From positions 1 through 64,000 of the forward strand of contig NZ_VRMG01000005.1 in NCBI RefSeq assembly GCF_008040105.1: 64,000 nt of DNA, read 5' to 3'. Source of the stretch: Lacisediminihabitans profunda (GTDB lineage Bacteria > Actinomycetota > Actinomycetes > Actinomycetales > Microbacteriaceae). Both the position numbers and the translations under genes were made by a program. Below, piece after piece: positions 44,681-60,318 of this stretch; positions within the stretch are counted from its first letter, which is position 1, and the number at the start of each line of letters is the position of its first letter. The notes under the pieces are model-generated. The model saw only the letters and a program-made list of their open reading frames with translations, ran no database searches and was not told the DNA's origin.

Positions 44681-45412
44681 CTACCCCGCGGCCGCTTCGG
44701 GTTCCTGATTCCGTGCCTCCTCAAGGTAGGCATACGCGGTGACCCGCGAGATGCCCAGGCGGGCAGCGATGCCTTCGACGCCCTTTCTCATCTGAAGTAC
44801 GCCCTGTTGGTCCAGCCGGGTGAGCACGGCGATGCGGTCGTCTCGGCTCATCTGGCCCACGGGCTTGCCGATCTCGCGGATGGCCTCGGTGACCATGGTA
44901 TCCATCACTGCCACCAGGTCCTGCCCGAAGAACTCGTTCGGCTGATTTTGGGAGCTGGAAGCGGCTCCCGGCAGCAGGCCGTCGAGCAGTGCCCGGGCCC
45001 GTTCGATGATGCTGACGTCGAAGTTCACGCACAACGCGGCGATGATCCGCCCGGCTGAGTTGCGAAAATACACCGAGGAGCAGCGCAATTCGCGTCCATC
45101 GCTGGTGAATCCTCGGTATCCGAACGCGTTGTGGTCCGCTTCCTGATTGTGAAGCACGCCGATCCCGAGGCTGCTGGAGGGGCCGCCGACTTCGCGTCCG
45201 GTGACGTGCCCGTTCTCGATCGCTGCGATCGTGTGGCTGAGGTCCGGATCCGGGGCAGACAGGTCGTGGAGCACGACCTCGCAACTGGGACCGGCCGCCG
45301 CGGCCAATGCATGCATGACGGGGCGGAAGGCGGTGAGAATGTCCGCCACTGACTCGTAGGTGTCCGTGTCGGTGAGCTGGCCCAGCAAAGACGGCGTCGA
45401 ATGCGCGGTCAT
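44681..45412 (-). CDS. YheO/DauR-type PAS and HTH regulator
   Basis: A 243-residue regulator. The YheO-like PAS domain (about 30-140) has GPSCEVVLHDLSAPD, ENGHVTGREVGGPSSSLG and SSVYFRNSAGRIIAALCVNFD; the C-terminal HTH has LGISRVTAYAYLEEAR. Relatives such as DauR control D-amino-acid catabolism. ATG 45412 has GGGAG just before it; an upstream in-frame start is less good. It is divergent from the MHS permease and RidA genes and is likely to control them. Confidence 0.85.
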   Translation of the reverse strand: MTAHSTPSLLGQLTDTDTYESVADILTAFRPVMHALAAAAGPSCEVVLHDLSAPDPDLSHTIAAIENGHVTGREVGGPSSSLGIGVLHNQEADHNAFGYRGFTSDGRELRCSSVYFRNSAGRIIAALCVNFDVSIIERARALLDGLLPGAASSSQNQPNEFFGQDLVAVMDTMVTEAIREIGKPVGQMSRDDRIAVLTRLDQQGVLQMRKGVEGIAARLGISRVTAYAYLEEARNQEPEAAAG

Positions 45413-45586
45413 CTTGTCTCCCTCACTCATCAAGCCATCATTATCCCGCGCTCTCCATGCGTACAAAAGTTTAAGCGCGTAGACATATTGTTCGACTTGC
45501 TGTTAGCTTATGCGGGGGTCGTGCGGCGGGCAACCCAAAGATTGGCGCCCCGCACCGCATCTTCACCCAGGGCAAGGAGGCTCTCA

Positions 45587-46924
45587 ATGGTCCAGGCACA
45601 AGAAACGCAAAGTAAGTCGTGGGGATTCGCAATATCGCCGAAGCAACGCAGGATGGTCGCTGCGGGCGCCATCGGCACTCTCATGGAGTACTACGACTAC
45701 TATCTCTACGGCCTTGCGGCTGCCGTCGTGTTCCCCACGGTGTTCTTCCCGAACGATAACGCCGCGGTTGCGACCCTCGCATCGTTCGGGAGTTTTGCTT
45801 TCGGCTTCTTGCTGCGCCCCCTCGGCGGCCTCTTCTGGGGCTTCATCGGCGATCGTTTCGGGCGCAAACCCGCTCTGCTGGCCACGGTGATCGGGATGGG
45901 GATCTGCACGGCCGCAATCGGCCTGACCCCCTCGTTCGCGTCGCTCGGGATCGTCGCGCCGATACTGCTACTGCTGTTCCGATTGCTGCAGGGACTGTTT
46001 GTGGGCGGCGAAATGGGGGCGGCCGCGACACTCGTCATCGAGCACGCCCCGGTGGGTCGACGCGGCCTGTTCGGGGCGATCCTGATCAGCGGTGCCGGCG
46101 TCGCGAACGTCGCATCGGCTGGCTTCATGGCCCTGCTGGGCGCCGGTTCCGCATCCTTCTTCATGGCATGGGGATGGCGCATTCCGTTTGTGTTTGCACT
46201 CGTGCTCGCCGTGATCGCCGTGGTGTTGCGCTCGAAACTGGAGGAGCCCGAAGAGTTCAAGGAGCACACCCAGGCCATCGAGCTCGGCCACGTCAAGCGC
46301 ACGAACCCGCTGAAGGAGGCTCTTCGTCATCCGAAGAATGCGATCCTCGGCATTCTCATCGGCCTGCCACAGAGCATTGCCGGCTACGTCGTGCTCACCT
46401 TCGGACTTGCCTTCATGGTTTCCAAGGGAACTCAGGCCCAGGTCGGCTTCATCGGCACCATGATCGTCGGCGTCCTGCAGATCTTCGCCGCGCCGTTCTG
46501 GGGGTGGGTCTCCGACAAGGTCGGCCGCCGCAGGTTCTACATCGCCGCTGCCATCGTTTTCGCGCTGCTGCTCTACCCCGCCTTCGCGTTGTACAGCACG
46601 AATGTCGCGGTGCTCATCTGGCTCGGCATGGTGGTCGGCTTCGTCATCCCGGGTGTCGCCATGCAGGGCACCCTGCAGACGATGCTCACGGAGATGTTCG
46701 ATGTCGAGGCGCGTATTACGGGCGTGAACATCGGCTACCAGTTCTCGAACATGCTCGGAGGATTCGCGCCATTGATCGCCACCGCGCTGTCGCTTGCCTT
46801 CGGCTCGATCGTGCCGATCATCGTCTTCGCGTCTGTCGTCGTGATCATCGGTGTCGTCGCCACGGCATACGCGTCGTTCCGGCCCGATGTGGAAGACGCG
46901 GGTCGGCTGCACACCCTCGCCTAG
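45587..46924 (+). CDS. Metabolite:H+ symporter (MHS family MFS)
   Basis: A 445-residue, 12-TM MFS protein. It has the MHS opening GTLMEYYDYYLYGLAAAVVF, the conserved loop GFIGDRFGRKPALL and RLLQGLFVGGEMGAAAT. MHS members import carboxylates such as shikimate, alpha-ketoglutarate or proline betaine. ATG 45587 is preceded by AAGGAGG. Its location suggests import of an acidic substrate such as N-acetyl-D-glucosaminate or an N-acyl-D-amino acid (inference). RidA follows 76 bp later. Confidence 0.9.
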   Translation: MVQAQETQSKSWGFAISPKQRRMVAAGAIGTLMEYYDYYLYGLAAAVVFPTVFFPNDNAAVATLASFGSFAFGFLLRPLGGLFWGFIGDRFGRKPALLATVIGMGICTAAIGLTPSFASLGIVAPILLLLFRLLQGLFVGGEMGAAATLVIEHAPVGRRGLFGAILISGAGVANVASAGFMALLGAGSASFFMAWGWRIPFVFALVLAVIAVVLRSKLEEPEEFKEHTQAIELGHVKRTNPLKEALRHPKNAILGILIGLPQSIAGYVVLTFGLAFMVSKGTQAQVGFIGTMIVGVLQIFAAPFWGWVSDKVGRRRFYIAAAIVFALLLYPAFALYSTNVAVLIWLGMVVGFVIPGVAMQGTLQTMLTEMFDVEARITGVNIGYQFSNMLGGFAPLIATALSLAFGSIVPIIVFASVVVIIGVVATAYASFRPDVEDAGRLHTLA

Positions 46925-47000
46925 CGTGCGGAGCAGGGCACCGAACGGCCACGGTGCCCTGCCACCCGACTTAAGACCTCGATAATAAGGAGTACCAATC

Positions 47001-47384
47001 ATGGCGAAGACCGCCTTCCGCACCACGAACGCGCCGCAGCCTGCGGGCCCGTACAGCCAAGGCATTGAGGCGAACGGGTTCTTCTATACGGCCGGATTCG
47101 GGCCACAGGACCCTGTCACCGGAGACATGGCAGAGTCCGTGGGCGACCAGACCCGGCAGGTGCTGCGGAACATTCGGTCCGTTCTCGCCGAGCGCGGGCT
47201 GACCATGGACGATTGCGTCAAGAGCACGGTGCACCTTGCCGATCTGGCCGACTTCGCCGAATTCAACCTGGCATACGCGGAGTTCTTTTCTGAGCCTTAT
47301 CCCGTGCGCACCACTGTCGGGTCGCAACTGGCGAACATCCTCGTCGAGATCGACGTCGTCGCCGTCGTGCGGGACGGTGCGTAG
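47001..47384 (+). CDS. RidA-family enamine/imine deaminase
   Basis: A 127-residue YjgF/YER057c/UK114 protein with GPYSQGIEANGFFYTAG and the family signature around YPVRTTVGSQLA, including catalytic R103 and E116. It hydrolyses reactive enamines and imines released by PLP dehydratases. Ribosome-binding site AAGGAG lies before the ATG. A PLP deaminase is encoded 2.3 kb away in the same functional cluster, which gives it an obvious job. Confidence 0.93.
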   Translation: MAKTAFRTTNAPQPAGPYSQGIEANGFFYTAGFGPQDPVTGDMAESVGDQTRQVLRNIRSVLAERGLTMDDCVKSTVHLADLADFAEFNLAYAEFFSEPYPVRTTVGSQLANILVEIDVVAVVRDGA

Positions 47385-47388
47385 CCCG

Positions 47389-48120
47389 CTACCCGAGCTC
47401 GCGAGCGATCTGCGTCGCGGTGCGCTGCAGGAGCGGGATGTGCACTTTGATCTGCTCCAGGTCGTGCTTCATGCGGATGGCGGTGAGTGAGAGCGCACCG
47501 ACAACCCCGGCGGAACTCCGGATGGGCACGGCCACGCAGTTGACGAAGTCCTCGAACTCCCCGTTATCCACGGCCCACCCCTGCTTGGCTACCGCGTCCA
47601 GCTCGGCATCCAGGGCTTTGCGGGTGGTGATGGTCGTGTCCGTGTACTTCGTCCACGTCGCGCCGTCGAGGACGGCATCGCGTCTGGCTGTGTCGAGGTC
47701 GGCGAGGATCGCCTTGCCGACGGCGCTGCAGTGCGGGCGTACCGGGAAACCGATCCGCGAGTACATGCGCACGCCGCTGGCGTCTTCGACCTTGTCGACG
47801 TAGATGATCGCATCGTCCATGAGTGCGGCCACGTGCACCGTGTTTCCGACGAGCTGGTGAAGTCGGCGCACCTGCGCGTAGGAGGACTGACGCAGATCGA
47901 GGTTCTCGAGTGAGGCCTGCGCGAGCGACGCCAAGTGGAAAGCGAGCGCATAGGTGCCGTCCTTGCGGCGCCGGACGTACCCGACCTCCTCGAGCGTCTG
48001 AAGTTCCCGGAACATGGTCGAGCGGTGCAGCCCGAACTCCTCCGCCAGCTGCGCGACCGTCTTCGGCTGCGCGGCGATCGAGTCGATGATTCCCACCGCC
48101 CTCTTCACGCTCTGCGACAC
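47389..48120 (-). CDS. IclR-family transcriptional regulator
   Basis: A 243-residue regulator. The winged HTH is at about 5-60 (TVAQLAEEFGLHRSTMFREL, then QTLEEVGYVRRRKDGTY); the GAF-like effector domain (about 75-240) has RIGFPVRPHCSAVGKAILADL and GWAVDNGEFEDFVNCVAVPI. It is third in the minus-strand set deaminase, amidohydrolase, iclR, and convergent with ridA. It probably controls both this operon and the divergent kdgK operon through the dyad at 51119-51134. Confidence 0.92.
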   Translation of the reverse strand: MSQSVKRAVGIIDSIAAQPKTVAQLAEEFGLHRSTMFRELQTLEEVGYVRRRKDGTYALAFHLASLAQASLENLDLRQSSYAQVRRLHQLVGNTVHVAALMDDAIIYVDKVEDASGVRMYSRIGFPVRPHCSAVGKAILADLDTARRDAVLDGATWTKYTDTTITTRKALDAELDAVAKQGWAVDNGEFEDFVNCVAVPIRSSAGVVGALSLTAIRMKHDLEQIKVHIPLLQRTATQIARELG

Positions 48121-48128
48121 GGATTCCC

Positions 48129-49697
48129 TTACCCTTCAGCCTGTTCGCGCCGGAGGCCCCGGCCCGGTCTGCTGTTCACGAGCGCGCCGTTCGCGAGCAC
48201 CGGCACTCCGGCCACCAGCACGTCGTCGATGCCGACGGCCTCGCCCAGTGGCTCGTCGTAGCTGGCGGTGTCGGCCACCGAACGCGGGTCGACCACGATG
48301 AGGTCGGCAACCCAGCCGGCGGCAACTCTGCCTCGTCGCCCCAGGCCGAAGCGAGCCGCCGGTGCGGACGAGAGGTGACCCACGGCATCCGACCATGACC
48401 ACTCCGGCGATTCACGCACATACTCGCGCAGATACCGGGCGAAGGTGCCGCGAGCCCGCGGATGCGGATGAGCGCCAATGAAGATGCCGTCTGAGCCGCC
48501 CAGGTGACCGGGATGCCCGAAGATGCGCGCGAGCTCCTCGACAGGGCGCTCGTACCGCACCGCCATGACGGCATTGACCTGGAGGCGGGAGGCGGCCAGC
48601 ACATCCAGGGCGAGATCGATCGCGTCGATGCCGGCTCGCGCAGCGGCATCCTCCAGGGTGAGTCCGTGGGCCCACGCGAACTCCGGAGCGGCCACATGCG
48701 CAAGCGTGATCATCGAGGGCCACTCGGGCCCGAGGCTCGCGTTGCGTTCGACGGCCGGGAACCAGTCGCGGCGCAGGCGCCGCCGCTCGCCCGGGTCGGT
48801 GATGACCTCGACGACCGTGTCGGCCGAGAGCACTGCGAGTTCCGGTGGCAGCAATGGCATGCCCAGCAGTGTGCAGCCGCGAGTGTACGGATACGCGTCG
48901 AAGGTCGCGTCAACGCCTCCGCGCTGGAGAGCGTCGAGCTGGTCATGAACGATGTGGGCCTGGGCGTGAAAGTGCGAGATGTGGACGCGCACGCCGGACG
49001 CCGCAGAGATTCGCGCGATCTCCTCGATGCCCGCGGCCGAATTGGATTCGTAGCCGCCGCGCATGTGCGTGACATAGATGCCGCCGGCGCGGGCCACTGG
49101 CGCGCACAGTGCCGCAATCTCATCCGCGGTGGCGAAGATGCCGGGAACGTAGTCGAGGCCGGTCGAGAGTCCAACGGCGCCGTCGCTCATCCCCGCTTCG
49201 ACCAGGGCAACCATCAGCGCACGCTGCTCATCGTCGGCCGGCGTTCTCGAGCGCCCGCACACCTCCCAGCGAACCGTCCCCGCGGGGACGAGGTAGGCGA
49301 GGTTCAGCCGCGACCGTCCGTCGACCGCCCTGAGGAACTCGCCAATGCCGCCGCCCGAGTAGCTCGGATGCTCGCCGTTGATGGCGGCGAAGTACTCACG
49401 CGCGTACGTCCCGTCGCCCGGCGCATAGGAGACGCCGTCTTGCCCGGCAATCACCGTAGTCACACCCTGCCTGAGCAGGGCCCGCTGCACGGATTCGTCC
49501 TCCATGAGCCCGTCCACGTGCGAGTGGGTATCGACGAACCCGGGCAGCACGAAACGCCCACGGCAGTCGATGACCCGATCGTCCTCGCCGGCGGGGATGT
49601 CGCCGACCTCGCTGACCGTCTCGCCCTCGATCGCGACATCAGCGCGTCGCATCCCGTCGCCGTCGACGACCGTTCCGCCGCGCATCACCCACCGCAT
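48129..49697 (-). CDS. D-aminoacylase-like amidohydrolase (N-acyl deacetylase)
   Basis: A 522-residue metal-dependent amidohydrolase. The HxH is H58/H60 in FVDTHSHVDG, with THMRGGYESNS, HISHFHAQ and a C-terminal GRRGRVAAGWVADLIVVD closing the composite beta-sandwich. Classical D-aminoacylases have a metal-binding Cys in a TTVVxGNCG segment; here the matching place reads TTVIAGQDGVS, so that Cys is absent. It cuts an N-acyl group from a D-configured amino acid or from N-acetyl-D-glucosaminate. ATG 49697 was used; the longer frame runs into the upstream gene. It is cotranscribed with deaminase and iclR. Confidence 0.85.
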   Translation of the reverse strand: MRWVMRGGTVVDGDGMRRADVAIEGETVSEVGDIPAGEDDRVIDCRGRFVLPGFVDTHSHVDGLMEDESVQRALLRQGVTTVIAGQDGVSYAPGDGTYAREYFAAINGEHPSYSGGGIGEFLRAVDGRSRLNLAYLVPAGTVRWEVCGRSRTPADDEQRALMVALVEAGMSDGAVGLSTGLDYVPGIFATADEIAALCAPVARAGGIYVTHMRGGYESNSAAGIEEIARISAASGVRVHISHFHAQAHIVHDQLDALQRGGVDATFDAYPYTRGCTLLGMPLLPPELAVLSADTVVEVITDPGERRRLRRDWFPAVERNASLGPEWPSMITLAHVAAPEFAWAHGLTLEDAAARAGIDAIDLALDVLAASRLQVNAVMAVRYERPVEELARIFGHPGHLGGSDGIFIGAHPHPRARGTFARYLREYVRESPEWSWSDAVGHLSSAPAARFGLGRRGRVAAGWVADLIVVDPRSVADTASYDEPLGEAVGIDDVLVAGVPVLANGALVNSRPGRGLRREQAEG

Positions 49698-49722
49698 GCT
49701 GTGCCCCTGCCGACTGTGCTGG

Positions 49723-51024
49723 TCAAAAGAAAGTGCGAACGAGATCGACCACGCGGTCGGACCCCTGTGAGGCCACCACCGGCAGGTAGCGCCACTTGTC
49801 GAACGTGGTGCACGGATGCGACAGTCCCAGTGCCACGACAGTGCCGATCGCACCAGGTTGAGCGCCGAACGCGCCATTCTCGCCCGTCAACCCCAGATAG
49901 CTGTGTTGATCGTTCATGGCGAGAATCGACGCATCTTGTAGTGGGGCCCATTCTTGACCGAGGTCGCTCGCGACCTGACGGGGGATTGGCAGCCCCTCGT
50001 CGAACGGGAAGTCGCGCTTGCCGCCGTCGAGCAGCGCAAGGCCCGGCTCGGGGTGCGACACCACGCGGGCAATGCCGCGCATCGCGGAGCGCAGCCGATA
50101 GGGCCCGGCGCCGCCCTCGTCGAGTGGTGAAATGCCGCGATAGAAGCCATCGTCGTGCACGACATACGCCCCGCTGCGAAGGGTCCACAACGTGCGCGAA
50201 TCGGCGGCGATCGCGCTGGCGAATGCCTCCGCGACCAGATCGAAGTACGCGCTTCCGCCCGCAGTCACATAGACGTCGCCGTCATCGTCGTAGAGATCGT
50301 GAAACACGTCGTGTAATTCGACCTGTCGCTGAAGATAGGCGCGCACCGCATCCAGCGACTCGTCTGAGCGGTCGTGGGCGAGACTTCCTTCGTAGCCGGC
50401 GACTCCGGCCAGGCGAAGGACGTCTGACGCGGCGATCCGCCGGGCGACCTCGAGTGCCTCGGCGTTGGTTCGGGCGCCGGTGCGCCCGTCGGCAGCACCG
50501 ATCTCGACGCAGACGTCGACGGGTCGCGGGGTGCGGGCCTCGCGGAGGGTGCTTTCCATCGCCTCGACCGTCGCTATCGAGTCGGCCCAGCAGACGAAGC
50601 GAAACTCCGGGTCGGCAAGCTGGGTGGCGAGGTAGCGCAGGGAACGATCGTCGACCGCGGCGTTGGCGAGCATGATCGAGTCCAGCCCGAAGGTGCGCGC
50701 CGTGCGCACCTGGCCCATCGTCGCCAGGGTGATGCCCAGGCTCCCCGCGTCAAGCTGACGCTGCCACAGCGCGGGGGCCATGGTTGTCTTGCCGTGCGGC
50801 ATCAGCTCGAGCCCATGGGAAGCGCTCCACTGGGCCATGACGGTCAGGTTGTTCTCGATGGCCTCGTCGTCGAGTGTGACGATCGGGGTCCAGAACTCAG
50901 AGAGCCGGGGGTCGCTCGCCAGGAACTCGGTCACCGCCATGCCGAATGCCCGCTCCGGGACTCCTTTGTCGCGCGCGGACAAGCGCTCATTCCCCAGCTC
51001 GTCCAACAGAAGCGCTCGTGTCAT
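49723..51024 (-). CDS. Fold-type III PLP deaminase (D-serine/D-glucosaminate dehydratase-like)
   Basis: A 433-residue protein of the alanine-racemase-like N-terminal family that includes D-threonine aldolase, D-serine dehydratase and D-glucosaminate ammonia-lyase. The PLP lysine is K79 in MPHGKTTMAP; the C-terminal metal-site region has MNDQHSYLGL. It removes ammonia from a beta-hydroxy D-amino acid through an enamine. With KDG kinase and KDPG aldolase next door, D-glucosaminate to KDG is the most economical reaction (inference). ATG 51024 follows GGGGA; the longer frame invades the promoter. Confidence 0.85.
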   Translation of the reverse strand: MTRALLLDELGNERLSARDKGVPERAFGMAVTEFLASDPRLSEFWTPIVTLDDEAIENNLTVMAQWSASHGLELMPHGKTTMAPALWQRQLDAGSLGITLATMGQVRTARTFGLDSIMLANAAVDDRSLRYLATQLADPEFRFVCWADSIATVEAMESTLREARTPRPVDVCVEIGAADGRTGARTNAEALEVARRIAASDVLRLAGVAGYEGSLAHDRSDESLDAVRAYLQRQVELHDVFHDLYDDDGDVYVTAGGSAYFDLVAEAFASAIAADSRTLWTLRSGAYVVHDDGFYRGISPLDEGGAGPYRLRSAMRGIARVVSHPEPGLALLDGGKRDFPFDEGLPIPRQVASDLGQEWAPLQDASILAMNDQHSYLGLTGENGAFGAQPGAIGTVVALGLSHPCTTFDKWRYLPVVASQGSDRVVDLVRTFF

Positions 51025-51118
51025 TGGGTCCCCTTCGGGATTTCGCGTGCAATGGGCCACATCGTGAGGCGTGGCGACAGTCAACTATAGATCTGACGTG
51101 GCGACCGTGTGCAAATGA

Positions 51119-51134
51119 CGCAACGCGAGTTGCG
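51119..51134. promoter_or_regulatory. Candidate IclR operator in divergent promoter
   Basis: CGCAAC-GCGA-GTTGCG is a perfect 6-bp dyad located between the divergent deaminase and KDG kinase genes, 32 bp before the kinase start. IclR regulators often bind a single palindrome in such a region, and an iclR gene is in the cluster. Confidence 0.5.
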
Positions 51135-51165
51135 CATGTCGCACCATAGAGGTCATAGTGGGGCT

Positions 51166-52131
51166 ATGACGCTCGAGGCAACACCGCGCTTGATCGCCCT
51201 CGGCGAGACGATGATGATGTTCGCCCCGGCGCGGGCAGAATCCCTCGCCACCGCCGAGGACGTGGGCGTTCACCCTGGCGGCGCGGAGTCGAACGTCGCG
51301 TGTCACGTGGCGCAGGCGGGCCTCTCGTCCGCGTGGGTGGGCGTGCTCGGCGACGATGTTCTCGGCCACCGGATACGCCGGTCTATCGAGCGTCTCGGCG
51401 TCGATACTCGGTGGGTCAGCTTCGACTCGGCCGCGCCCACCGGCGTCTACTTCAAGGACCCCGGACACGGCGTGCTGTATTACCGCAGCGGGTCGGCCGC
51501 ATCCCGGATGAGCCCAGCCACGGTTGAGCGCATCCCCCTGGAGGAAGCCGATGTCGTGCACCTCTCGGGCATCACTCCAGCGCTGTCGGCGAGTTGCGCA
51601 GCCCTGGTGGAAACGGTGTTCGACCGGGTCGCAGCGAGCAGCGCGAGACTGAGCTTTGACGTCAACTTCCGGCCCTCGCTCTGGCCGGAGGGCGCTGCGG
51701 CCTCGGTGCTGCGCACGCTGGCGAACCGTGCAGACATCGTCTTCGTCGGTCGCGATGAAGCACAGGTGTTGTGGGGGTGCGGCACGGCGGATGACGTGCG
51801 GGTGCTGCTGCCGGGACCGGGGCGGCTCATCGTGAAGGACAGCGATATCGGGGCCACGGAGTTCAGTGCGGACGGCAGCGTCTTCGAGCCGGCGATCCCC
51901 ACTGAGGTGCTGGAGGCGGTGGGGGCCGGCGATGCATTCGCCGCCGGCTATCTCGCGGCCCTGCTGCGAGGCGAAAACACCAAGGGTCGGCTGCGCGCCG
52001 GCCACGAGCGCGCGCGGCTGGTGCTGATGTCACCAAGCGACTTCGTCGCGCAAGTCGCCTCGACCGGCGTATCGGCCGGAACCGTCGCCCCTGTCCTGCC
52101 CACCGAACCCCGATTGAAAGGCCCAGCCTGA
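51166..52131 (+). CDS. kdgK: 2-dehydro-3-deoxygluconokinase (PfkB family)
   Basis: A 321-residue ribokinase-fold sugar kinase. It has GGAESNVACHVAQAGL, the substrate-lid region GVYFKDPGHGVLYYRSGSAAS, SFDVNFRPSLWP and the catalytic VGAGDAFAAGYL anion hole with Asp. KDG kinases share the SFDVNFRPSLW and YYR segments. It converts KDG to KDPG. ATG 51166 follows GGGG; an earlier in-frame ATG would read through the operator. The next gene, KDPG aldolase, starts 2 bp after its stop. Confidence 0.9.
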   Translation: MTLEATPRLIALGETMMMFAPARAESLATAEDVGVHPGGAESNVACHVAQAGLSSAWVGVLGDDVLGHRIRRSIERLGVDTRWVSFDSAAPTGVYFKDPGHGVLYYRSGSAASRMSPATVERIPLEEADVVHLSGITPALSASCAALVETVFDRVAASSARLSFDVNFRPSLWPEGAAASVLRTLANRADIVFVGRDEAQVLWGCGTADDVRVLLPGPGRLIVKDSDIGATEFSADGSVFEPAIPTEVLEAVGAGDAFAAGYLAALLRGENTKGRLRAGHERARLVLMSPSDFVAQVASTGVSAGTVAPVLPTEPRLKGPA

Positions 52132-52133
52132 CC

Positions 52134-52760
52134 ATGGTCGAAAACGCGCAGTTCAGCGAGATCTTCAACGCAGCGCCACTCATGGCCATCTTGCGCGGCA
52201 TGGGCGTGGAGCGCAGCCTCTCCGTCGCGACAACCGCCTGGGATCTCGGCATAGACGTCATTGAGCTGCCGATTCAGACGCCGGATGACATCGAGGCGCT
52301 GCGGGTTGTCGTCAGGGCCGCCCGCGAGCGGGGAAAGGTGGTAGGCGCCGGCACCATCGTCTCGCTCGAGCACGTGCGGCAGGCGGCGGATGCGGGAGCC
52401 GAGTTCACCGTGTCTCCGGGCTTCGATCTCGAAGTCGTGCGGGCGTCGTCCGATGCCGGGATGCCTTCGATGCCGGGGGTGGCAACCGCAAGCGAGGTGC
52501 AGCTTGCGCTGAAGGAGGGACTGACCTGGCTCAAGGCGTTCCCCGCATCCGTGCTCGGGACGGAGTGGATCACGGCGATGCATGGTCCGTTCCCGCAGGC
52601 GACGTTCGTCACCACCGGCGGCATGAATGCCGCGAATGCGGGCGCATTCCTGAGGGCGGGTGCGCGCGTCGTGGCCATCGGCTCGGCACTCGAGGACCCG
52701 TCACAGCTTCCCAATCTTGCCGCGCTGCTCGAGCCTGCTGCGCCGTCTGCCGGGAATTGA
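52134..52760 (+). CDS. eda: KDPG/KHG aldolase
   Basis: A 208-residue class I aldolase. Schiff-base K134 is in WLKAFPAS, E44 in DVIELPIQTPD is the general acid/base, and VVGAGTIVSLEHVRQAADAGAEF and TVSPGFD are family blocks. It splits KDPG into pyruvate and glyceraldehyde 3-phosphate. It is tightly packed between kdgK and the rhodanese gene. Confidence 0.93.
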   Translation: MVENAQFSEIFNAAPLMAILRGMGVERSLSVATTAWDLGIDVIELPIQTPDDIEALRVVVRAARERGKVVGAGTIVSLEHVRQAADAGAEFTVSPGFDLEVVRASSDAGMPSMPGVATASEVQLALKEGLTWLKAFPASVLGTEWITAMHGPFPQATFVTTGGMNAANAGAFLRAGARVVAIGSALEDPSQLPNLAALLEPAAPSAGN

Positions 52761-52762
52761 CC

Positions 52763-53173
52763 GTGGTCTCGCAGAGCGATCTTCTCGCGTTCGTGGACGC
52801 GAGGCTGGCGTACGAGATAGACGTGGTCGCTGCCTCGCGTGCCCAGATCGATGGCACGGCCACATTCGTCGATACCCGCAGACAGCTCTCGTGGGACCAC
52901 GGTCACATCGCCGGCGCCCTGCACCTACCGGCCGACACCCTGGATGCCCAGCTCGCCACCCTGCCCCGCGACCGCGTCCTCGTCGTCTACGGCTGGGGCC
53001 CCGGCTGCAACGGTGCTACGCACACCGCCCGCCGCCTGCTCGCCGAGGGCTTCGACGTGCGCGAGTTGATCGGGGGGTACGAGTACTGGGTGCGAAATGG
53101 TTTTTCGCTCGAACGTGGTGCCGCCGTCACGAGGCAGGCGCCCGATCCCCTCGTGACCGCCGAAAGTCGCTGA
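52763..53173 (+). CDS. Rhodanese-like protein
   Basis: A 136-residue single rhodanese domain. It has FVDTRRQLSWDHGHIAGALHLP and an active-site loop YGWGPGCNGATHTAR with C82. The GTG start at 52763 lies 2 bp after the aldolase stop. It may transfer sulfane sulfur or act in detoxification; its link to sugar-acid breakdown is unclear, but it recurs as an operon partner here. Confidence 0.87.
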   Translation: MVSQSDLLAFVDARLAYEIDVVAASRAQIDGTATFVDTRRQLSWDHGHIAGALHLPADTLDAQLATLPRDRVLVVYGWGPGCNGATHTARRLLAEGFDVRELIGGYEYWVRNGFSLERGAAVTRQAPDPLVTAESR

Positions 53174-53481: not shown

Positions 53482-54690
53482 GTGACGAAAAGAGCGAACA
53501 TCGTGGTTTCTGGCAGCCCCAGCGTCCTGCGTGCGTTGAATGACCGTTCTGCGCTCGAGATCCTGCTGCGCGAGTCCGAGGTGTCGCGGGCGCAGCTTGA
53601 AACGATGACCGGGCTGTCGAAGCCGGCCACCTCGCAGTTGCTCAACCGATTGGAAGCTGTCGGACTCGTCAAGCGGGTCGGTCTGCGAGACGGAGGCCCA
53701 GGTCCCCGTGCCCAGCTTTGGAGCTTGAACGCTGAAGCCGCCTATGTCGCAGGCATCGACGTGACAGCGACCGAGATCGATGTGTCGATCGCCGATCTTC
53801 AAGGCGCTACCGTCTCACATCTGACTACACCGGTAATCCCGGGCAGGGGCGAAGCAGCTGACGCGCTGTTCGGCACCGTTTCCGAAGCCTGCGCATTGAT
53901 CGATCTCAATCCGTCCGATCTCGCGCACGTGACGATCGGAATGCCCGGCGCGGTCGATCCGGTTTCAGGGCAACTGCGGTACGCCTCTGATCTGCCCGAC
54001 TGGGCCGGCATAGACATTCTTCGGACCCTCAGCGACCACCTGGCTGTTCCGGTCACCGTCGAGAACGACGTGAATCTCGTCGCCCTCAACGAGATGGCCA
54101 CAGGGACGGCCCTCGGGGCGACAGACTTCGTCCTGCTCTGGCTCTCCGACCGCGGCGTCGGATCCTCCGTCGTCTTGCGAGGAGAACTGCTACGGGGGTC
54201 GACTCTGGGCGCCGGCGAAATCGGCTTCATGCCCGTGCCCGACCTGGCCCGAGCGACAACCCCGAGCACAGGTTTCCGATACGGAGACCGCCTGGCCCAG
54301 CCCGCCGTTCTCGCCCTGGCGAAGGCCTACGGTATCAGCGCACCCACCGGCACGAACGCGGTGACCCAGGCTCTCGCGGACAAGCACTCCTCGACTCCCG
54401 GATTCCTCGACGACCTCGCACGTCGCATCGCGGCAGGACTCGCCGGAGTGGTCGCCCTGATCGACCCCGAACTCATCGTCCTCGGTGGGGATGTGGGGTT
54501 GGCCGGGGGAGAGGTGCTCTGCAACCTCATCGCCTCCAGCCTGGCTGAACTCGTGCAGCAGCGTGTGACCATCCGGCCCGGCCAAACCGACCGCGGGTCC
54601 GTGGGCGCCGGTGCCGTCCAATCCGCTGTCATCCCGGCCCGCGAGCGCTATTTTGCCGCCGGTTCTACCCTCGATCTCCCGTCAGCCTGA
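53482..54690 (+). CDS. ROK-family transcriptional regulator
   Basis: A 402-residue NagC/XylR-like protein. The N-terminal winged HTH (about 10-75) has SRAQLETMTGLSKPATSQLL and NRLEAVGLVKRVG. The ROK domain has AGIDVTATEIDVSIAD, GMPGAVDP, ENDVNLVALNEM and DRGVGSSVVLRGELLRGSTLGAGEIGF, but the zinc-type CxCGxxGC motif is missing. GTG 53482 lacks a good ribosome-binding site; GTG 53503, after AAAAGAG, is a plausible alternative. It probably regulates the downstream import and amino-sugar genes. Confidence 0.88.
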   Translation: MTKRANIVVSGSPSVLRALNDRSALEILLRESEVSRAQLETMTGLSKPATSQLLNRLEAVGLVKRVGLRDGGPGPRAQLWSLNAEAAYVAGIDVTATEIDVSIADLQGATVSHLTTPVIPGRGEAADALFGTVSEACALIDLNPSDLAHVTIGMPGAVDPVSGQLRYASDLPDWAGIDILRTLSDHLAVPVTVENDVNLVALNEMATGTALGATDFVLLWLSDRGVGSSVVLRGELLRGSTLGAGEIGFMPVPDLARATTPSTGFRYGDRLAQPAVLALAKAYGISAPTGTNAVTQALADKHSSTPGFLDDLARRIAAGLAGVVALIDPELIVLGGDVGLAGGEVLCNLIASSLAELVQQRVTIRPGQTDRGSVGAGAVQSAVIPARERYFAAGSTLDLPSA

Positions 54691-54737
54691 CGGTACAGCA
54701 CCACTAACCCCTGAATACGCATAGCAAAGGAGCACAC

Positions 54738-56069
54738 ATGCAAAAAATTCTCCCGGTCGCCGCCCTCGGTGTCGCGGCCCTCATCGCTCTAAGCGCCTGT
54801 TCGAGCGGGCCGAGCGCCACCGGTTCGAAGCTGGCGCCTCTCCCCAAGTCCAGCGACAAAATCACCCTGACGGTGTGGAGCGGATTCACCGACAGCGATC
54901 TCGCCGCGCTGAACACCACGCTCGCGGGATTCCACACACTGCACCCGAACATCACCATCACGAGTGAGGGCAGCCAGGACGATGACAAGATCTCCCAGGC
55001 CATCCGAGGTGGAACCGCTCCTGACGTCGCCATCTCCGGCAACGCCAACGCGCTGGGCCAATATTGCAGTTCCGGCGCATTCCAGGACCTGGCCGGTTAC
55101 ATCTCTCGCGATAAGGTCGACCTCTCACAGATCCCCCTTGCGGTTCAGAAGTTCACCTCGTACAAGGGCATACGGTGCGCGATGCCGCTTCTCGCCGACG
55201 ACTATGGCCTGTACTACAACAAGGAGCTCTTTGCCAAGGCGGGCATCACCTCTCCGCCGAAGACGATGAGCGAACTGGCCAAAGACGCCAAGAAACTCAC
55301 CGAACTCAACACAGATGGCAGCATCAAGGTTGCCGGATTCGTTCCCACCATCGGCTTCTACAACAACAGACTCGACGTGTGGGCACCCCAGTGGGGAGCG
55401 GCCTGGCAGTCCAGCGCCGGCAAGTCGAGCCTCGGAACCAGTTCCGGGTGGACCGACATGTTCGCCTGGCAGAAGAGTCTCACCGAGTTCTACGGGGCTG
55501 ACAAGCTGACGGCCTTCACCTCCGCCGCCGGACAGAAGTACTCTGCCGACAACTCGTTCCAGACCGGGCAGATCGCGATGATGTTCGATGGAGAATTTCG
55601 CACCGGCTTCGTCGACAGCCAGGCCCCCAACCTCAAGTACGGGACCGCGCCGCTGCCCGTTGCCGACAAACTCAGCGCCCACTATGGCGGGAGCGACATC
55701 GGCGGCAACATCATCGGAATCCCGAAGGGCGCCCAGCACACCGGCGCCGCCTGGCAGCTGATCAAATACATGAGCACGCAGACTGCACCGCTGGTGACGC
55801 TCGCGAACGGGCTGAAGAACATCCCCACCACGCTCGACGCCATCAAATCGCCCGATCTCGTCAGTAGCGCGAATTTCGCGCCGTTCCTCCGCATATTCGC
55901 GAACCCGAATTCAAGCTCATTGCCTTCCACCCCGAACGGAGGCGCCTTCCTGAAGACCGCCACCGACTTCGCAGTGAAATGGCAGACCGGGGGCACAACG
56001 GATCTGAGCGCCGGGCTGAGCGCAGCCGACTCCGAAATCACAAGCGCATTGGCACTGAAGGCACCGTGA
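54738..56069 (+). CDS. Sugar ABC transporter substrate-binding lipoprotein
   Basis: A 443-residue family 1 binding protein. The signal peptide MQKILPVAALGVAALIAL ends in lipobox LSAC (Cys 21), followed by SSGPSATGS. The mature region starts ITLTVWSGFTDSDLAALN. It is the first gene of an operon to 61374. The permease GTG overlaps its stop by 4 bp. The ligand is probably an amino-sugar disaccharide or other beta-glycoside (inference from GH4, kinase and SIS genes). Confidence 0.92.
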   Translation: MQKILPVAALGVAALIALSACSSGPSATGSKLAPLPKSSDKITLTVWSGFTDSDLAALNTTLAGFHTLHPNITITSEGSQDDDKISQAIRGGTAPDVAISGNANALGQYCSSGAFQDLAGYISRDKVDLSQIPLAVQKFTSYKGIRCAMPLLADDYGLYYNKELFAKAGITSPPKTMSELAKDAKKLTELNTDGSIKVAGFVPTIGFYNNRLDVWAPQWGAAWQSSAGKSSLGTSSGWTDMFAWQKSLTEFYGADKLTAFTSAAGQKYSADNSFQTGQIAMMFDGEFRTGFVDSQAPNLKYGTAPLPVADKLSAHYGGSDIGGNIIGIPKGAQHTGAAWQLIKYMSTQTAPLVTLANGLKNIPTTLDAIKSPDLVSSANFAPFLRIFANPNSSSLPSTPNGGAFLKTATDFAVKWQTGGTTDLSAGLSAADSEITSALALKAP

Positions 56070-57094
56070 CCTCCTCTGCAGCGACGGGAACGGCGACGCC
56101 ACGAACAGTGGCGTCGCCGGCCCCCGGGGCGAACTCCGTAGGAAGAACACGTCGGGGTGATGGCGATCACAAACGCCGCAGGCACCAGCGCCTGGTTGTC
56201 CTGGCGTTCATGTCACCGTGGATCATCGGATTCGGAGTCTTCTTCGTCTACCCGCTGCTGGCAACAGTGTTCCTCTCATTCACCAGTTACGACCTGATCA
56301 GCGATCCGATCTGGGTCGGCGTGAAGAACTACGTCTTCATGTTCACCAGCGACCCACTCGTATGGACGGCGATTCGGAACACCACCTATCTGGTAGTCGC
56401 CATCACGATCGGCCGGGTCGGTTACGCGCTCGCTTCCGCGATGGTGTTATCGAAGGTGCGACGGGGGTCGGGAGTCTTCCGGACACTGTTCTACCTGCCC
56501 GCCCTGGCCCCGCCGGTGGCGGCGGCCCTGGCGTTCGTCTTCCTGTTCAACCCCGGGACCGGGCCGGTAAACCAAGTGCTGGGCTGGTTCGGCATCAAAG
56601 GCCTGCTCTGGTTCAACGATCCGCTCCTGGCGAAGCCTGCGCTGACCGTGTTGGCGCTGTGGGCTTCCGGCGAAATAATGGTCATCCTGTTGGCCGCACT
56701 CCTTGACGTGCCCACCGAGTACTACGAAGCGGCCGCCCTCGACGGCGCCGGCTCGTTCACCCGGTTCTGGCACATCACTCTCCCCACCATCGCGCCGGTG
56801 CTCACGTTCGCCGTCATCAACTCGATCATCGTTGGGCTGCAGTACTTCACAGAAGCGGTCGTCGCCGGTGCCGTGGCATCGGGATCGAGCGATGCCGTGG
56901 GATCCGGCACCCAGCTCGGCTACCCCGACAATTCCACCCTCACCTTCCCAATGTGGCTGTATCAACAGGGCTTTCACTACTACAACATGGGCTACGCCTC
57001 GACGATGGCAATTGTGCTTTTCATCGTTTCGGCCATATTCACCGTCATTCTGGTGCGGCAACTGCGCAAATCCGGGATGACAGAGGAGGACTGA
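56066..57094 (+). CDS. ABC sugar permease (MalF-like)
   Basis: A 342-residue permease with a long cytoplasmic N-terminus (about 45 residues, basic), six TM helices and EAA loop TEYYEAAALDGAGSFTRF. GTG 56066 overlaps the binding-protein stop; the longer frame is a shadow. Confidence 0.92.
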   Translation: MTSSAATGTATPRTVASPAPGANSVGRTRRGDGDHKRRRHQRLVVLAFMSPWIIGFGVFFVYPLLATVFLSFTSYDLISDPIWVGVKNYVFMFTSDPLVWTAIRNTTYLVVAITIGRVGYALASAMVLSKVRRGSGVFRTLFYLPALAPPVAAALAFVFLFNPGTGPVNQVLGWFGIKGLLWFNDPLLAKPALTVLALWASGEIMVILLAALLDVPTEYYEAAALDGAGSFTRFWHITLPTIAPVLTFAVINSIIVGLQYFTEAVVAGAVASGSSDAVGSGTQLGYPDNSTLTFPMWLYQQGFHYYNMGYASTMAIVLFIVSAIFTVILVRQLRKSGMTEED

Positions 57095-57097
57095 ACA

Positions 57098-57976
57098 TTG
57101 GCCATAGCCACGCACGCGGGCGCACCGCTCACTCGCACCAAGAGTTCACAGGCGAAACGTCGCGACTTCCTCGCCTGGATCGCTCTCCACGCCGTCGCTA
57201 TCGCGATGGCCATAGGATTCCTCGCCCCGCTGGTCTTCGTGCTGCTCACCGCATTCATGACCGACCAACAGGCGCTGACCAAGGACCTGTGGCCCCAAAC
57301 CTGGCAGTGGCAGAACTTCGGAGCGGTATTCGAGAAAGCCCCACTGCTGCGCTACTTCGGCCAGAGCCTGACCTACTCGGTGTTGTCCACCGTCGGAATG
57401 CTCATCTCGAGCGTGCCCATCGCCTATGGCCTGGCACGGCTGAAATGGAAGGGCCGCACCTGGGCCTTCTACCTTGTCATCGTCGCCATGATGCTGCCGC
57501 CTCAGGTCATCGCGGTGCCGATGTACGTGCTGTGGGCGAAAGCCGGACTCACCGGAACGCTCTGGCCATTGATCATCCCCAACTTCTTCGGAGATGCCTT
57601 CAGCATCTTCCTTATTCGACAATTCCTAATCTCGATTCCGCAGTCCTATATCGACGCAGCACGAATCGACGGCGCGAGCGAACTCGGAATTCTCTGGCGC
57701 ATTGTCATTCCCATGGCGAAGCCCGGGCTCGCTGCCGCGGCCCTTTTCATGTTCCTCCGCACCTGGAACGACTACTTCGGGCCACTCCTCTATACCGGCG
57801 AAAGCCCTGCCAACTGGACCCTCTCGGTCGGGCTGGCCTCCTTCAGGAGCGTTCACCAGGTGCAGTGGAACCTCACCATGGCCGCCACGGTTCTCGTGAT
57901 GCTGCCGGTGATCATCCTGTTCTTCTTCGCTCAGAAGTCCTTCATCGAAGGCATCAAACTCTCGGGAGTCAAATAA
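57098..57976 (+). CDS. ABC sugar permease (MalG-like)
   Basis: A 292-residue permease with six TM segments and EAA loop QSYIDAARIDGASELGIL. It starts with TTG 57098 after a strong GAGGAGG ribosome-binding site. It pairs with the previous permease. As in the other two importers of this window, no ATPase is encoded nearby. Confidence 0.92.
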   Translation: MAIATHAGAPLTRTKSSQAKRRDFLAWIALHAVAIAMAIGFLAPLVFVLLTAFMTDQQALTKDLWPQTWQWQNFGAVFEKAPLLRYFGQSLTYSVLSTVGMLISSVPIAYGLARLKWKGRTWAFYLVIVAMMLPPQVIAVPMYVLWAKAGLTGTLWPLIIPNFFGDAFSIFLIRQFLISIPQSYIDAARIDGASELGILWRIVIPMAKPGLAAAALFMFLRTWNDYFGPLLYTGESPANWTLSVGLASFRSVHQVQWNLTMAATVLVMLPVIILFFFAQKSFIEGIKLSGVK

Positions 57977-57978
57977 CA

Positions 57979-59235
57979 ATGAAACTCACAGTCGTTGGCG
58001 GAGGGTCTACCTATACCCCCGAACTCATCGACGGATTGCTGCAGACATCCGCCGCATTCCAGATCGACGAAATCGCACTGATGGACACTGATCCGGTGCG
58101 GCTTGAGGTCATCTCCGCCTTCGCCCGACGCATGGTGGCCGCCGCCGGGCAACCCACCGTCATCAGCGCAACAAACGACCTCGCCCGTGCGGTTGACGGG
58201 GCCGCCGCCGTGCTCATCCAACTGAGGGTCGGCGGCCAGCGCACGCGGTTGTCCGATGAAACCTTCCCCCACGACTGCGGGTGCATCGGTCAGGAGACCA
58301 CCGGAGCCGGCGGATTAGCCAAGGCGCTTCGCACGGTGCCGGTCGTCATCGATATCGCTGACCAGATACGGCGCCTTGCCGGTGACGACACCTGGATCAT
58401 CGACTTCACCAACCCCGTAGGCATCGTCACTCGCGGGCTGCTCGAGGCGGGGCATAAAGCGGTGGGCTTGTGCAACGTCGCCATCAACTTCGAACGCAAC
58501 TTCTCCCGCATCCTCGACGTCGCTCCCGAACGGGTTCAACTCAAGCATGTCGGGCTCAACCACCTGAGCTGGGAGACCGGCGTCCTCGTCGACGGGGAAG
58601 ACCAGCTGCCCGCGTTGTTCCAGCACCGTCTCGCCGATGTTGCGCGCGAGTTCCGGATCTCCGAAAGCCATCTCCTCTTGCAGCAGGCGGTTCCTTCCTA
58701 CTATCTGAGGTACTACTTCGCCCATGATGAGGTGTTCAACGAACAGCTGCGCGAGCCTGCCCGCGCTGCGGTCGTCATGAACGTGGAGAACGAGTTGCTC
58801 GACATCTATCGGGACGAGAGCGTCGTCACCAAGCCTCTTCAGCTGCAGGAGCGAGGGGGACGCTACTACTCGTTGGCCGCCATCCAGCTGGTGGCGTCGC
58901 TGCTGAGCGACACCGGGGACGTGCAGGTGGTCAACGTGCGAAACCGCGGCACTCTGCCGTTCCTCCCCGAGGATGCGGTCATCGAAGCGGCCTCCGTGAT
59001 CACCGCGGCCGGCCCCATGCCGTTACCGATCGGCCGAGTCGACCCGTTGATGGAAGGTCTGATCGGTCACCACTTCGCCTACGAGCAACTGGCGCTTGAC
59101 GCCGCACTGCATGGTGGCCGCGCCCGGGTGGTCAAAGCGTTGCTCGCGCATCCGCTGGTCGGACAATATGCGATCGCGGAAAAGCTCGCCGACAATCTGC
59201 TGGCGGCAAACAAGCACTTCCTCCCGTGGGCGTAG
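57979..59235 (+). CDS. NAD-dependent family 4 glycosidase (6-phospho-beta-glucosidase-like)
   Basis: A 418-residue GH4 enzyme. The N-terminal dinucleotide fold is MKLTVVGGGSTYTPELIDGL; the family motifs are CGCIGQETTGAGG (E106), DFTNPVGIV and GLCNVAIN (C165, N166, metal/substrate site) with VGLNH near H195. GH4 uses NAD and a divalent metal in a redox elimination mechanism. Beta-type members act on 6-phospho-glucosides or chitobiose 6-phosphate, yet no PTS is present; the nearby kinase may supply the phosphate, or the enzyme accepts free disaccharide. It starts 2 bp after the permease stop. Confidence 0.9.
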   Translation: MKLTVVGGGSTYTPELIDGLLQTSAAFQIDEIALMDTDPVRLEVISAFARRMVAAAGQPTVISATNDLARAVDGAAAVLIQLRVGGQRTRLSDETFPHDCGCIGQETTGAGGLAKALRTVPVVIDIADQIRRLAGDDTWIIDFTNPVGIVTRGLLEAGHKAVGLCNVAINFERNFSRILDVAPERVQLKHVGLNHLSWETGVLVDGEDQLPALFQHRLADVAREFRISESHLLLQQAVPSYYLRYYFAHDEVFNEQLREPARAAVVMNVENELLDIYRDESVVTKPLQLQERGGRYYSLAAIQLVASLLSDTGDVQVVNVRNRGTLPFLPEDAVIEAASVITAAGPMPLPIGRVDPLMEGLIGHHFAYEQLALDAALHGGRARVVKALLAHPLVGQYAIAEKLADNLLAANKHFLPWA

Positions 59236-60302
59236 TGGATCCGCGTGACGACCGTGTTCTTCTGGCGATCGACGGGGGGAATAGTAAGACGGACGTGGCA
59301 GTAGTGGGATTTGACGGCACTGTGCTCGCCCAGTTCAGAGGCGCCGGCGTCTCCCAGCACATATTCGGGGCTCGACAGTCGGTACTCGCGCTCGAACAAA
59401 TGGTGCGCACGGCGCTGAGCAGCGCCGGCCGGGCGCTGGGCCCGCAGCATGTCAGGCACACCGCCGCGTACCTCGCGGGGGTCGATCTTCCGCGGGAACA
59501 ATCGACCCTGCTGAGCGTCGTCGTGGAGCGTGCATGGTCAGAATCGACGAGCGTCGATAACGACACCTTCGCGCTTCTGCGCGTCGGATCACCATCCGGT
59601 TTCGGCGTCGCCGTCGTGTGCGGCGCCGGCATCAACTGCGTTGCAGTCGATTCGCATGGCCGGACAATTCGATTCCCGTCCCTCGGCCAGCTTTCCGGTG
59701 ACTGGGGCGGCGGCGAGCATCTCGGCGGGGAGGTCATGTTCGCTGCCTCACGTGCGGAAGACCAGCGCGACGTGAACACATCGCTTCGCAGCGCCGTGAT
59801 CCGGCACTTCGGCACAACAACCGTGCTTGAAGTGATCGAGGCCATGCAATACAAAGAGATTCCGGCAGAACGGATTCACGAACTGGTGCCGGTGCTCTTC
59901 GACGAAGCCGATGCTGGCGACGCGGTAGCGTGCGCGCTCGTTGAACGACTCGCGTCAGAAGTGGCGCGATACGCTGTCTCGGCCCTGAGGCAACTCGGGA
60001 TGCTCGCGTCTGACGCCCCCATCGTGCTCGGCGGGGGAGTCCTGGCAGCACGACGACCCATCCTGGTCGAATCGGTTGAGAGACGCATCGTGAACGATGC
60101 GCCCAACGTGCGGTTTGCTTACGTCGACCGTGCCCCGATTGCGGGAGCCGCGCTTCTCGGCCTCGATCACATCGGGATGACCGTCGATGCCACGGTCGAG
60201 CAGAGGATCCGCCGCCAATACGGTCTGGAGCAGGCGATAGCCGGCCCGCTGGTGAGCGCACCTTCGCACCCGGTCCTCCGACCGTCATCGCTCCCGGATT
60301 AG
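59226..60302 (+). CDS. N-acetylglucosamine kinase-like (BadF/BadG/BcrA/BcrD) ATPase
   Basis: A 358-residue ASKHA-fold kinase. Phosphate 1 is LLAIDGGNSKTDVAVV, adenosine-type GGGEHLGGEV and GGGVLAARRPILVESV are visible, and GAGINCVAVDSHG is the phosphate 2 region. Members phosphorylate GlcNAc, glucosamine or related sugars. It starts with GTG 59226, overlapping the GH4 stop by 10 bp; GTG 59235 is an alternative. It fits phosphorylation of the sugar freed by, or offered to, the GH4 enzyme. Confidence 0.85.
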   Translation: MGVVDPRDDRVLLAIDGGNSKTDVAVVGFDGTVLAQFRGAGVSQHIFGARQSVLALEQMVRTALSSAGRALGPQHVRHTAAYLAGVDLPREQSTLLSVVVERAWSESTSVDNDTFALLRVGSPSGFGVAVVCGAGINCVAVDSHGRTIRFPSLGQLSGDWGGGEHLGGEVMFAASRAEDQRDVNTSLRSAVIRHFGTTTVLEVIEAMQYKEIPAERIHELVPVLFDEADAGDAVACALVERLASEVARYAVSALRQLGMLASDAPIVLGGGVLAARRPILVESVERRIVNDAPNVRFAYVDRAPIAGAALLGLDHIGMTVDATVEQRIRRQYGLEQAIAGPLVSAPSHPVLRPSSLPD

Positions 60303-60318
60303 AAGGAATACCTCACTG

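Follow-up and report, generated by a model that had tools for sequence, protein, structure and literature searches.

Which compound is degraded by the gene cluster at positions 44,681 to 53,173 of contig NZ_VRMG01000005.1 of Lacisediminihabitans profunda? The window, which is the whole analysed stretch, covers the first 64,000 nucleotides of this contig, and an earlier note had judged the cluster a probable one for the catabolism of N-acetyl-D-glucosaminate (GlcNAc1A), an oxidised end of chitin. We consider it probable that the cluster serves N-acetyl-D-hexosaminate catabolism, most likely that of GlcNAc1A. The acid sugar would be imported by the MHS permease, and acetate would then be removed by the GQDG-type amidohydrolase, as its family, its context and one GH20 fusion in a relative suggest. 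Ammonia would be eliminated from D-glucosaminate by the pyridoxal phosphate (PLP) deaminase, giving 2-keto-3-deoxygluconate (KDG), and RidA would help to hydrolyse the enamine or imine. From the family assignments, KDG would be converted by the kinase into 2-keto-3-deoxy-6-phosphogluconate (KDPG), which would be split by the aldolase into pyruvate and glyceraldehyde-3-phosphate. Control would be exerted by the IclR-family and YheO-type regulators.

Every gene named in the earlier note was found as an open frame at its place with a family match. Ten window proteins were scanned with Pfam and NCBIfam models against curated cut-offs; most NCBIfam scores lay below them, so the exact functions could not be read from the models. 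The cut-offs were passed by the PF00294 match of the kinase and the PF01081 match of the aldolase. No NCBIfam kinase model reached its cut-off, and the best solved match of the kinase was KDG kinase 1v19. The aldolase, which was the sole PF01081 match in its genome (E <= 1e-15), reached 156.0 bits with TIGR01182 and missed the cut-off of 156.05 by 0.05 bits. For the MHS permease the best NCBIfam match was the metabolite/H+ symporter model TIGR00883 (337 bits, cut-off 443 bits), and for the amidohydrolase PRK09061 (189 bits, cut-off 340). The combination of deacylase, ammonia-lyase, KDG-type kinase and KDPG aldolase suggested an N-acylated 2-amino sugar acid as the substrate.

The cluster is a real conserved unit. 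In a family sample of 150 genomes, searched for deaminase and amidohydrolase each at E <= 1e-30, the deaminase was present in 47, the amidohydrolase in 38 and both in 32. With one deaminase place per genome, 31 of the 47 had an amidohydrolase no more than 10 kb away. G296, G392 and G359 each had a second deaminase place, which was excluded from this pairing, and the second G359 locus was likewise left out of the locus comparison. That comparison used one locus per genome (47 loci, window included) and revealed amidohydrolase in 31, RidA in 30, IclR in 19, kinase and aldolase in 15 each, both together in 14, either of them in 16, MHS in 5 and GntP in 2. Five of these loci (L055, L075, L078, L086 and L091) reached contig ends, so neighbours could be missed there. 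The full set of the window, including MHS, YheO and rhodanese genes, was seen again in L048 and, at 80-90% identity, in the Cryobacterium algoritolerans locus L100.

A named set was composed of the best 80 of at least 308 confirmed amidohydrolase relatives, 40 of which had a deaminase nearby; its search pattern contained GQDG, so GQDG frequencies in it are biased upwards, and it may share species with the family genomes. Thirty-eight of the 40 deaminase loci were actinobacterial and 20 were from Streptomyces. Kinase was found in 25, aldolase in 9, either of them in 26, RidA in 37, IclR in 30, GntP in 18 and MHS in 1. Loci with a linked kinase or aldolase came from six actinobacterial orders: Kitasatosporales, Micrococcales, Pseudonocardiales, Mycobacteriales, Propionibacteriales and Streptosporangiales. 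In Tsukamurella the genes for RidA, IclR, kinase, deaminase, amidohydrolase, aldolase and gluconate:H+ symporter were consecutive, and the same seven, with GntP as the symporter, stood together in Arthrobacter. In a phylum sample of 296 genomes, a deaminase homologue (E <= 1e-40) was detected in 18, the window's included. Flanks were taken from 16 of them, leaving out the own locus and the 5,960-base contig of G234. In 10 of the 16 the deaminase was accompanied by amidohydrolase, kinase and IclR; 8 of these shared one genus code and had genome sizes of 7-10 Mb.

Clues to the substrate came from the neighbours in relatives. Two GntP proteins tested scored 394 and 366 bits against the gluconate:H+ symporter cut-off of 293. 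At L028:6045-9353 (minus strand, single-contig genome), one frame of 1102 aa encoded a GQDG amidohydrolase followed by GH20 domain 2 and the GH20 catalytic domain; it stood beside deaminase and RidA genes, with nagB (above cut-off) and ROK genes downstream. The order in L050 was deaminase-aldolase-GH20-nagB, without amidohydrolase and with nagB again above cut-off. A nagB gene lay near the deaminase in 7 of the 47 family genomes, and both of the two that were scanned exceeded the nagB cut-off. GH20 was present in 48 of the 150 family genomes and in 27 of the 47 with deaminase; 5 of these 47 (two of one genus code) had it no more than 10 kb from the deaminase, against 0.26 expected by random placement, a test in which second pieces of split GH20 genes were not counted and shared ancestry is ignored. 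In the named set, GH20 was found in 5 of the 40 deaminase loci (L103, L105, L111, L121 and L126) and also in L112, which had no deaminase match. The midpoints of KDPG aldolase and GH20 genes were at most 2 kb apart in 3 genomes, all of them deaminase-bearing; in G419 and G352 the aldolase adjoined GH20 away from the deaminase locus (L183, L184). The GH20 enzymes, the glucosamine-6-phosphate deaminase and the GH20 fusion thus indicated an N-acetyl-hexosaminate. Ten GH20 proteins (L050, L064-L066, L103, L105, L111, L112, L121 and L126) had no strong N-terminal hydrophobic stretch, the largest 12-residue hydrophobic mean being 0.25-1.76, compared with 2.44 for the L035 GH20, a crude measure with uncertain start codons; they are therefore probably cytosolic.

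Several points weigh against the assignment, and they concern the conservation of the cluster, the residues of the amidohydrolase and the link to chitin, besides the neglect of shared ancestry in all random-placement enrichment tests. Neither kinase nor aldolase was nearby in 31 of the 47 family loci, and 13 of the 47 deaminase genomes had no PF01081 match (E <= 1e-15) anywhere, so the pair may serve another purpose there. Within the own genus code, the amidohydrolase (E <= 1e-60) was found in 3 of 13 genomes, the window's included. Such loci would suit the use of N-acyl-D-amino acids, in which a D-aminoacylase and a D-serine/D-threonine dehydratase would act, RidA would clear the enamine, and kinase and aldolase would be chance neighbours or work on another sugar acid. 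This is in line with the best solved matches, D-aminoacylase 1m7j for the amidohydrolase and 3gwq, named D-serine deaminase, for the deaminase, and with proteobacterial loci in which homologous deaminases, accompanied by RidA and IclR, adjoin genes of amino-acid ABC transporters. Yet it leaves unexplained the kinase or aldolase linkage in six orders, the GntP, GH20 and nagB genes and the GH20 fusion in relatives, and the replacement of the subtype V Cys by Asp in every kinase-linked protein scored, and we regard it as unlikely. The earlier argument that N-acyl-D-amino acid use fails to account for KdgK and Eda is thus supported, with the linkage present in many, not most, family loci. As for RidA, it is present as the note had said, but as evidence for the enamine step it was rejected, being a non-specific companion of homologous deaminases that also occurs at the amino-acid ABC transporter loci. 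In L057:6313-10563, where both kinase and KDPG aldolase are absent from the locus, a gene of the dihydrodipicolinate synthase (DHDPS) family lay between the amidohydrolase and RidA/deaminase genes, possibly a non-phosphorylating variant; as an alternative KDG aldolase this gene was rejected, no such model reaching its cut-off.

For the residues, the amidohydrolase was compared with OngB. In the available text of PMC9537276, GlcNAc1A is catabolised in Pseudoalteromonas prydzensis ACAM 620 through the ong cluster (OngB, OngC, OngD and KdgK), and complete ong pathways are reported solely in Gammaproteobacteria and one Achromobacter. For OngB, the available text of PMC12017989 gives a metal site of Cys97, His222 and His252 with Asp368, the GlcNAc1A-binding residues Ser290, Ser292 and Glu226, Gln298 setting specificity, and Tyr194, Lys254, Tyr285, Ser291 and Arg379 as common anchors of acetamido and carboxylate groups. 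In an alignment numbered after PpOngB, with AfDam (1m7j) included and BbDam (3gip) left out, the window protein retained His68, His70, His222, His252, Asp368, Tyr194, Tyr285 and Arg379. The metal ligand Cys97 was replaced by Asp (GQDG against GNCG), so the Cys ligand in GNCG that marks subtype V D-aminoacylases was missing too. Several substrate residues were changed (Ser290 to Gly, Ser292 to Thr, and Glu226 to Tyr, with a small insertion near position 226), and among the anchors Lys254 became His and Ser291 became Cys. At column 298 an Arg was read in the window protein, but also in AfDam, where the paper has Leu; the comparison at this position was dropped because the alignment misplaces the column.

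The exchange of the ligand was not peculiar to the window. Forty-four actinobacterial amidohydrolases with a deaminase close by, the window's among them, were found through the deaminase and not through an amidohydrolase pattern. Of these, 39 had Asp97 and 5 had Cys97; all 27 kinase-linked proteins carried Asp97, and none of the five Cys97-type proteins was kinase-linked. Thirty-eight Asp-type actinobacterial rows formed one branch apart from OngB in a 50-row quick tree, with a support of 99 in the Shimodaira-Hasegawa approximate likelihood ratio test (SH-aLRT). Two GNCG (Cys-type) amidohydrolases, in L064 and L065, stood with GH20, nagB, ABC permease and deaminase genes without a kinase, possibly as a further variant. 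The name Sco4986, that of a Streptomyces N-acyl-D-amino acid deacylase which may or may not belong to the GQDG clade, was not found among the papers listed by a literature search.

The deaminase tree comprised 75 rows and was rooted on one very long row; L038 was left out of both trees for its broken genes, and for L048, whose deaminase is split in two pieces, one 300-aa piece was used unchanged. The branch that took in the window deaminase was actinobacterial and had 37 rows (95/98). A proteobacterial branch (99/96) contained, among other deaminases, those of L035, L036 and L096, whose amidohydrolases bear the OngB signature, and that of L040, whose amidohydrolase lacks it; the ong-type rows were not a single clade inside it. 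Kinase-linked rows were scattered over the tree (9 changes, at least 5 of them forced), which fits either an ancient function that several lineages retained or linkage that arose more than once. 3gwq and the deaminase beside an OngB-type gene of Cupriavidus campinensis (L096) were grouped at 100/99, so this PDB entry may be a glucosaminate deaminase. L040, on a Comamonadaceae plasmid, had deaminase, RpiR and a Cys-type amidohydrolase without OngB Ser292/Gln298 beside an ABC transporter, and may be a similarly arranged cluster for N-acyl-D-amino acids.

It could be asked whether an actinobacterium has here acquired an ong cluster proper, related to the marine one by vertical descent. The enzyme superfamilies and the order of reactions are the same, and the window deaminase is 35% identical to that of the Pseudoalteromonas ong cluster (L035; the kinase 26%). 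However, PpOngB is nearer to AfDam (46% identity) than to the window protein (26%), both enzymes lie in separate branches, and no SSS transporter or RpiR regulator was found among the window genes by family scans. Orthology with ong was therefore given up, and vertical membership was rejected on the missing Cys97 ligand and the other amidohydrolase residues together with the two trees; such descent is highly improbable. Judged from sequence, the cluster would work like ong and is not a member of it by descent.

Another hexosaminate could be used instead of GlcNAc1A, for instance N-acetyl-D-galactosaminate, which would be degraded through 2-keto-3-deoxygalactonate (KDGal) and its 6-phosphate (KDPGal) to the aldolase step, or a different N-acyl-2-amino sugar acid. 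PfkB kinases, PF01081 aldolases and GH20 enzymes can accept more than one epimer, and in the Klebsiella ong-type locus genes are annotated as KDGal kinase and KDPGal aldolase. Against this possibility, the best solved match of the kinase was a KDG kinase, nagB exceeded its cut-off near the L028 and L050 loci, and we know of no comparable natural source of N-acetylgalactosaminate. Such a substrate seems rather improbable, and GlcNAc1A is the likely one. In that Klebsiella locus the two genes so annotated (L036:11493-12951) stand in place of a PfkB kinase, and PDB 9g5m, titled 'Amidohydrolase family protein', had zero branch length from the amidohydrolase of the locus (L036:7968-9407), with the OngB signature residues kept.

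A further point is the proposed link to chitin. Lytic polysaccharide monooxygenases (LPMOs) leave oxidised ends on chitin, and actinomycetes are major chitin degraders of soil. In the own genome, AA10 LPMO (LPMO_10) had no match, GH20 had no match, so an equivalent of the GH20 enzyme OngA was not seen either, and GH18 had one match of 30 bits at a cut-off of 29.6 bits. LPMO_10 was found in 2 of the 150 family genomes and 12 of the 296 phylum genomes. Eight of these 12 had the deaminase, but all eight are of one genus code, so the co-occurrence is confounded. The note had suggested looking for the gene order next to LPMO genes; in these eight genomes no LPMO was near the cluster, since each was either separated from it by hundreds of kilobases or placed on a different contig. 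Both family LPMO genomes had the deaminase, against 45 of the other 148 (p = 0.10), at a distance of about 100 kb in G319 and on separate contigs in G379. The catabolic part of the proposal was supported, by the logic of deacetylation, ammonia elimination, phosphorylation and cleavage and by the linkage of kinase or aldolase in 16 of 47 and 26 of 40 loci, while an oxidised chitin end made by the host is unproven. Lacking LPMO_10 and GH20, the host would depend on GlcNAc1A set free by other organisms, or the acid would come from another source.

The features are collected in Table 1. The note had placed its regulators around one divergent promoter, whereas two divergent pairs were seen, YheO with MHS and deaminase with kinase.

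Table 1. Position and assignment of the features of the cluster and of the adjoining cassette (window coordinates)
Feature	Position	Strand	Remark
YheO/DauR-type transcriptional regulator (PAS_6 + HTH_22)	44681-45466	-	beside MHS and RidA also in L048, L053, L100
MHS-type permease of the major facilitator superfamily, predicted acid-sugar importer	~45587-46924	+	retained in L048, L053, L100
RidA-family enamine/imine deaminase	47001-47384	+	TIGR00004 above cut-off
IclR-family regulator	47389-48120	-	best NCBIfam model KdgR, under cut-off
GQDG-type amidohydrolase, putative N-acetyl-hexosaminate deacetylase	48129-49697	-	family, residues, tree
Fold-III PLP deaminase (PF14031, PF01168), putative D-glucosaminate ammonia-lyase	49723-51084	-	start probably 51024
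PfkB-family KDG-type kinase	51109-52131	+	PF00294; start probably 51166
Near-palindrome GCAACNNNNRTTGC (GCAAC-N4-RTTGC), candidate operator	51120-51133		deaminase-kinase gap
KDPG/KHG aldolase	52134-52760	+	PF01081
Rhodanese-domain protein	52757-53173	+	retained in L045, L046, L048, L100
ROK-family regulator	53482-54690	+	family scan
Sugar ABC transporter: binding protein and two permeases	54738-57976	+	assigned from frames, no family search
GH4 glycosidase	57979-59235	+	best solved matches 6-phospho-beta-glucosidases
BadF-type kinase, NagK-like	59226-60302	+	62 bits, cut-off 370
SIS-domain protein, NagB-II-like glucosamine-6-phosphate deaminase	60319-61374	+	210 bits, cut-off 430

From the reading of the frames, the true starts of deaminase and kinase probably lie inside the listed frames, at about 51024 and 51166, which leaves a gap of about 140 bp. 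The near-palindrome in this gap also occurred in the homologous gap of five aligned relatives. It was exact in L045, L046 and L048; the L047 copy differed at one position, and that of L019 was a base short and carried a mismatch besides. Across the window the pattern of GCAACNNNNRTTGC with at most one mismatch had 9 matches against 7.2 expected, which is the chance level, and no second exact copy was found in the window besides that at 51120. A longer operator pattern was rejected, since it was derived from the 51120 site itself and hence proves nothing.

Adjoining the cluster, and absent from the earlier note, is a ROK-ABC-GH4-NagK-NagB cassette (53482-61374), which could take up a disaccharide with GlcNAc1A at its end, cleave it and process the GlcNAc half; GH20 with nagB may play this role in relatives. 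After 18 weaker places of 41 were excluded for GH4, the deaminase was present in 15 of the 22 genomes with a close GH4, against 47 of 150 overall (p = 1e-4). GH4-deaminase pairs within 20 kb occurred in three genomes, the window's included. In Glaciibacter (L151) the deaminase-amidohydrolase pair ran directly into ROK-ABC-GH4-NagK; L044 had RidA, deaminase, nagB, NagK and GH4 together, and L024, of another family code, had deaminase, kinase, ABC transporter, ROK and GH4. Homologues of the ABC transporter accompanied GH4 in L024, L059, L061-L063 and L151. The GH4-NagK-ABC cassette also stood apart from the deaminase (L059, L061-L063), and it is therefore called associated and not part of the cluster. 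On an Anaerolineaceae contig (L154), an amidohydrolase relative lay amid ABC transporter, GH4 and NagK-like matches without a deaminase.

Ordinary enzyme families are thus combined in a pathway variant that is coherent and widely conserved and has apparently not been described; among the matches listed, no description of an actinobacterial GlcNAc1A pathway was found in open-licence literature. Tentatively, and with the chances somewhat short of even, actinomycetes including Streptomyces may have their own pathway for oxidised chitin ends, assembled independently of the marine one, in which the Asp-type clade would deacetylate GlcNAc1A freed inside the cell by GH20 or GH4 from imported oxidised chitobiose. 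If true, such a further route in actinomycetes, based on an amidohydrolase clade whose metal ligand has changed, would fill a gap on the fate of oxidised chitin ends, and the database names D-aminoacylase, alanine racemase and D-serine deaminase could be corrected.

Two groups of known enzymes and one known pathway may be compared with the cluster. The D-aminoacylases AfDam (1m7j) and BbDam (3gip) are of the same family by sequence as the window amidohydrolase, and AfDam shares with it the HxH motif, the two His ligands and the catalytic Asp. In contrast, the Cys ligand of D-aminoacylases is Asp throughout the GQDG clade, Lys254 is His or Thr, and Glu226 is mostly Tyr (two Ala). The fold-III D-serine deaminase 3gwq and D-threonine aldolases are of the same family as the window deaminase, but 3gwq groups with the Cupriavidus ong-type deaminase outside the actinobacterial branch.

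For ong, plasmid records of Pseudoalteromonas (L035) and Klebsiella (L036) served as comparison loci. Both systems unite a D-aminoacylase-type amidohydrolase, a fold-III PLP deaminase, RidA, which is not specific, and a PfkB KDG-type kinase in one cluster; a KDPG aldolase in some clusters, and GH20 in the cluster of some actinobacterial relatives, add to the likeness. The actinobacterial systems differ in their Asp-for-Cys amidohydrolase clade, in a deaminase outside the branch that holds ong, and in GH20 proteins that, where checked, have no evident signal peptide, unlike ong. Regulation would also be different, with IclR and YheO-type proteins in the window in place of the RpiR regulator OngR, and where ong uses the SSS transporter OngIT, uptake would be provided by MHS in the window and by GntP in relatives.

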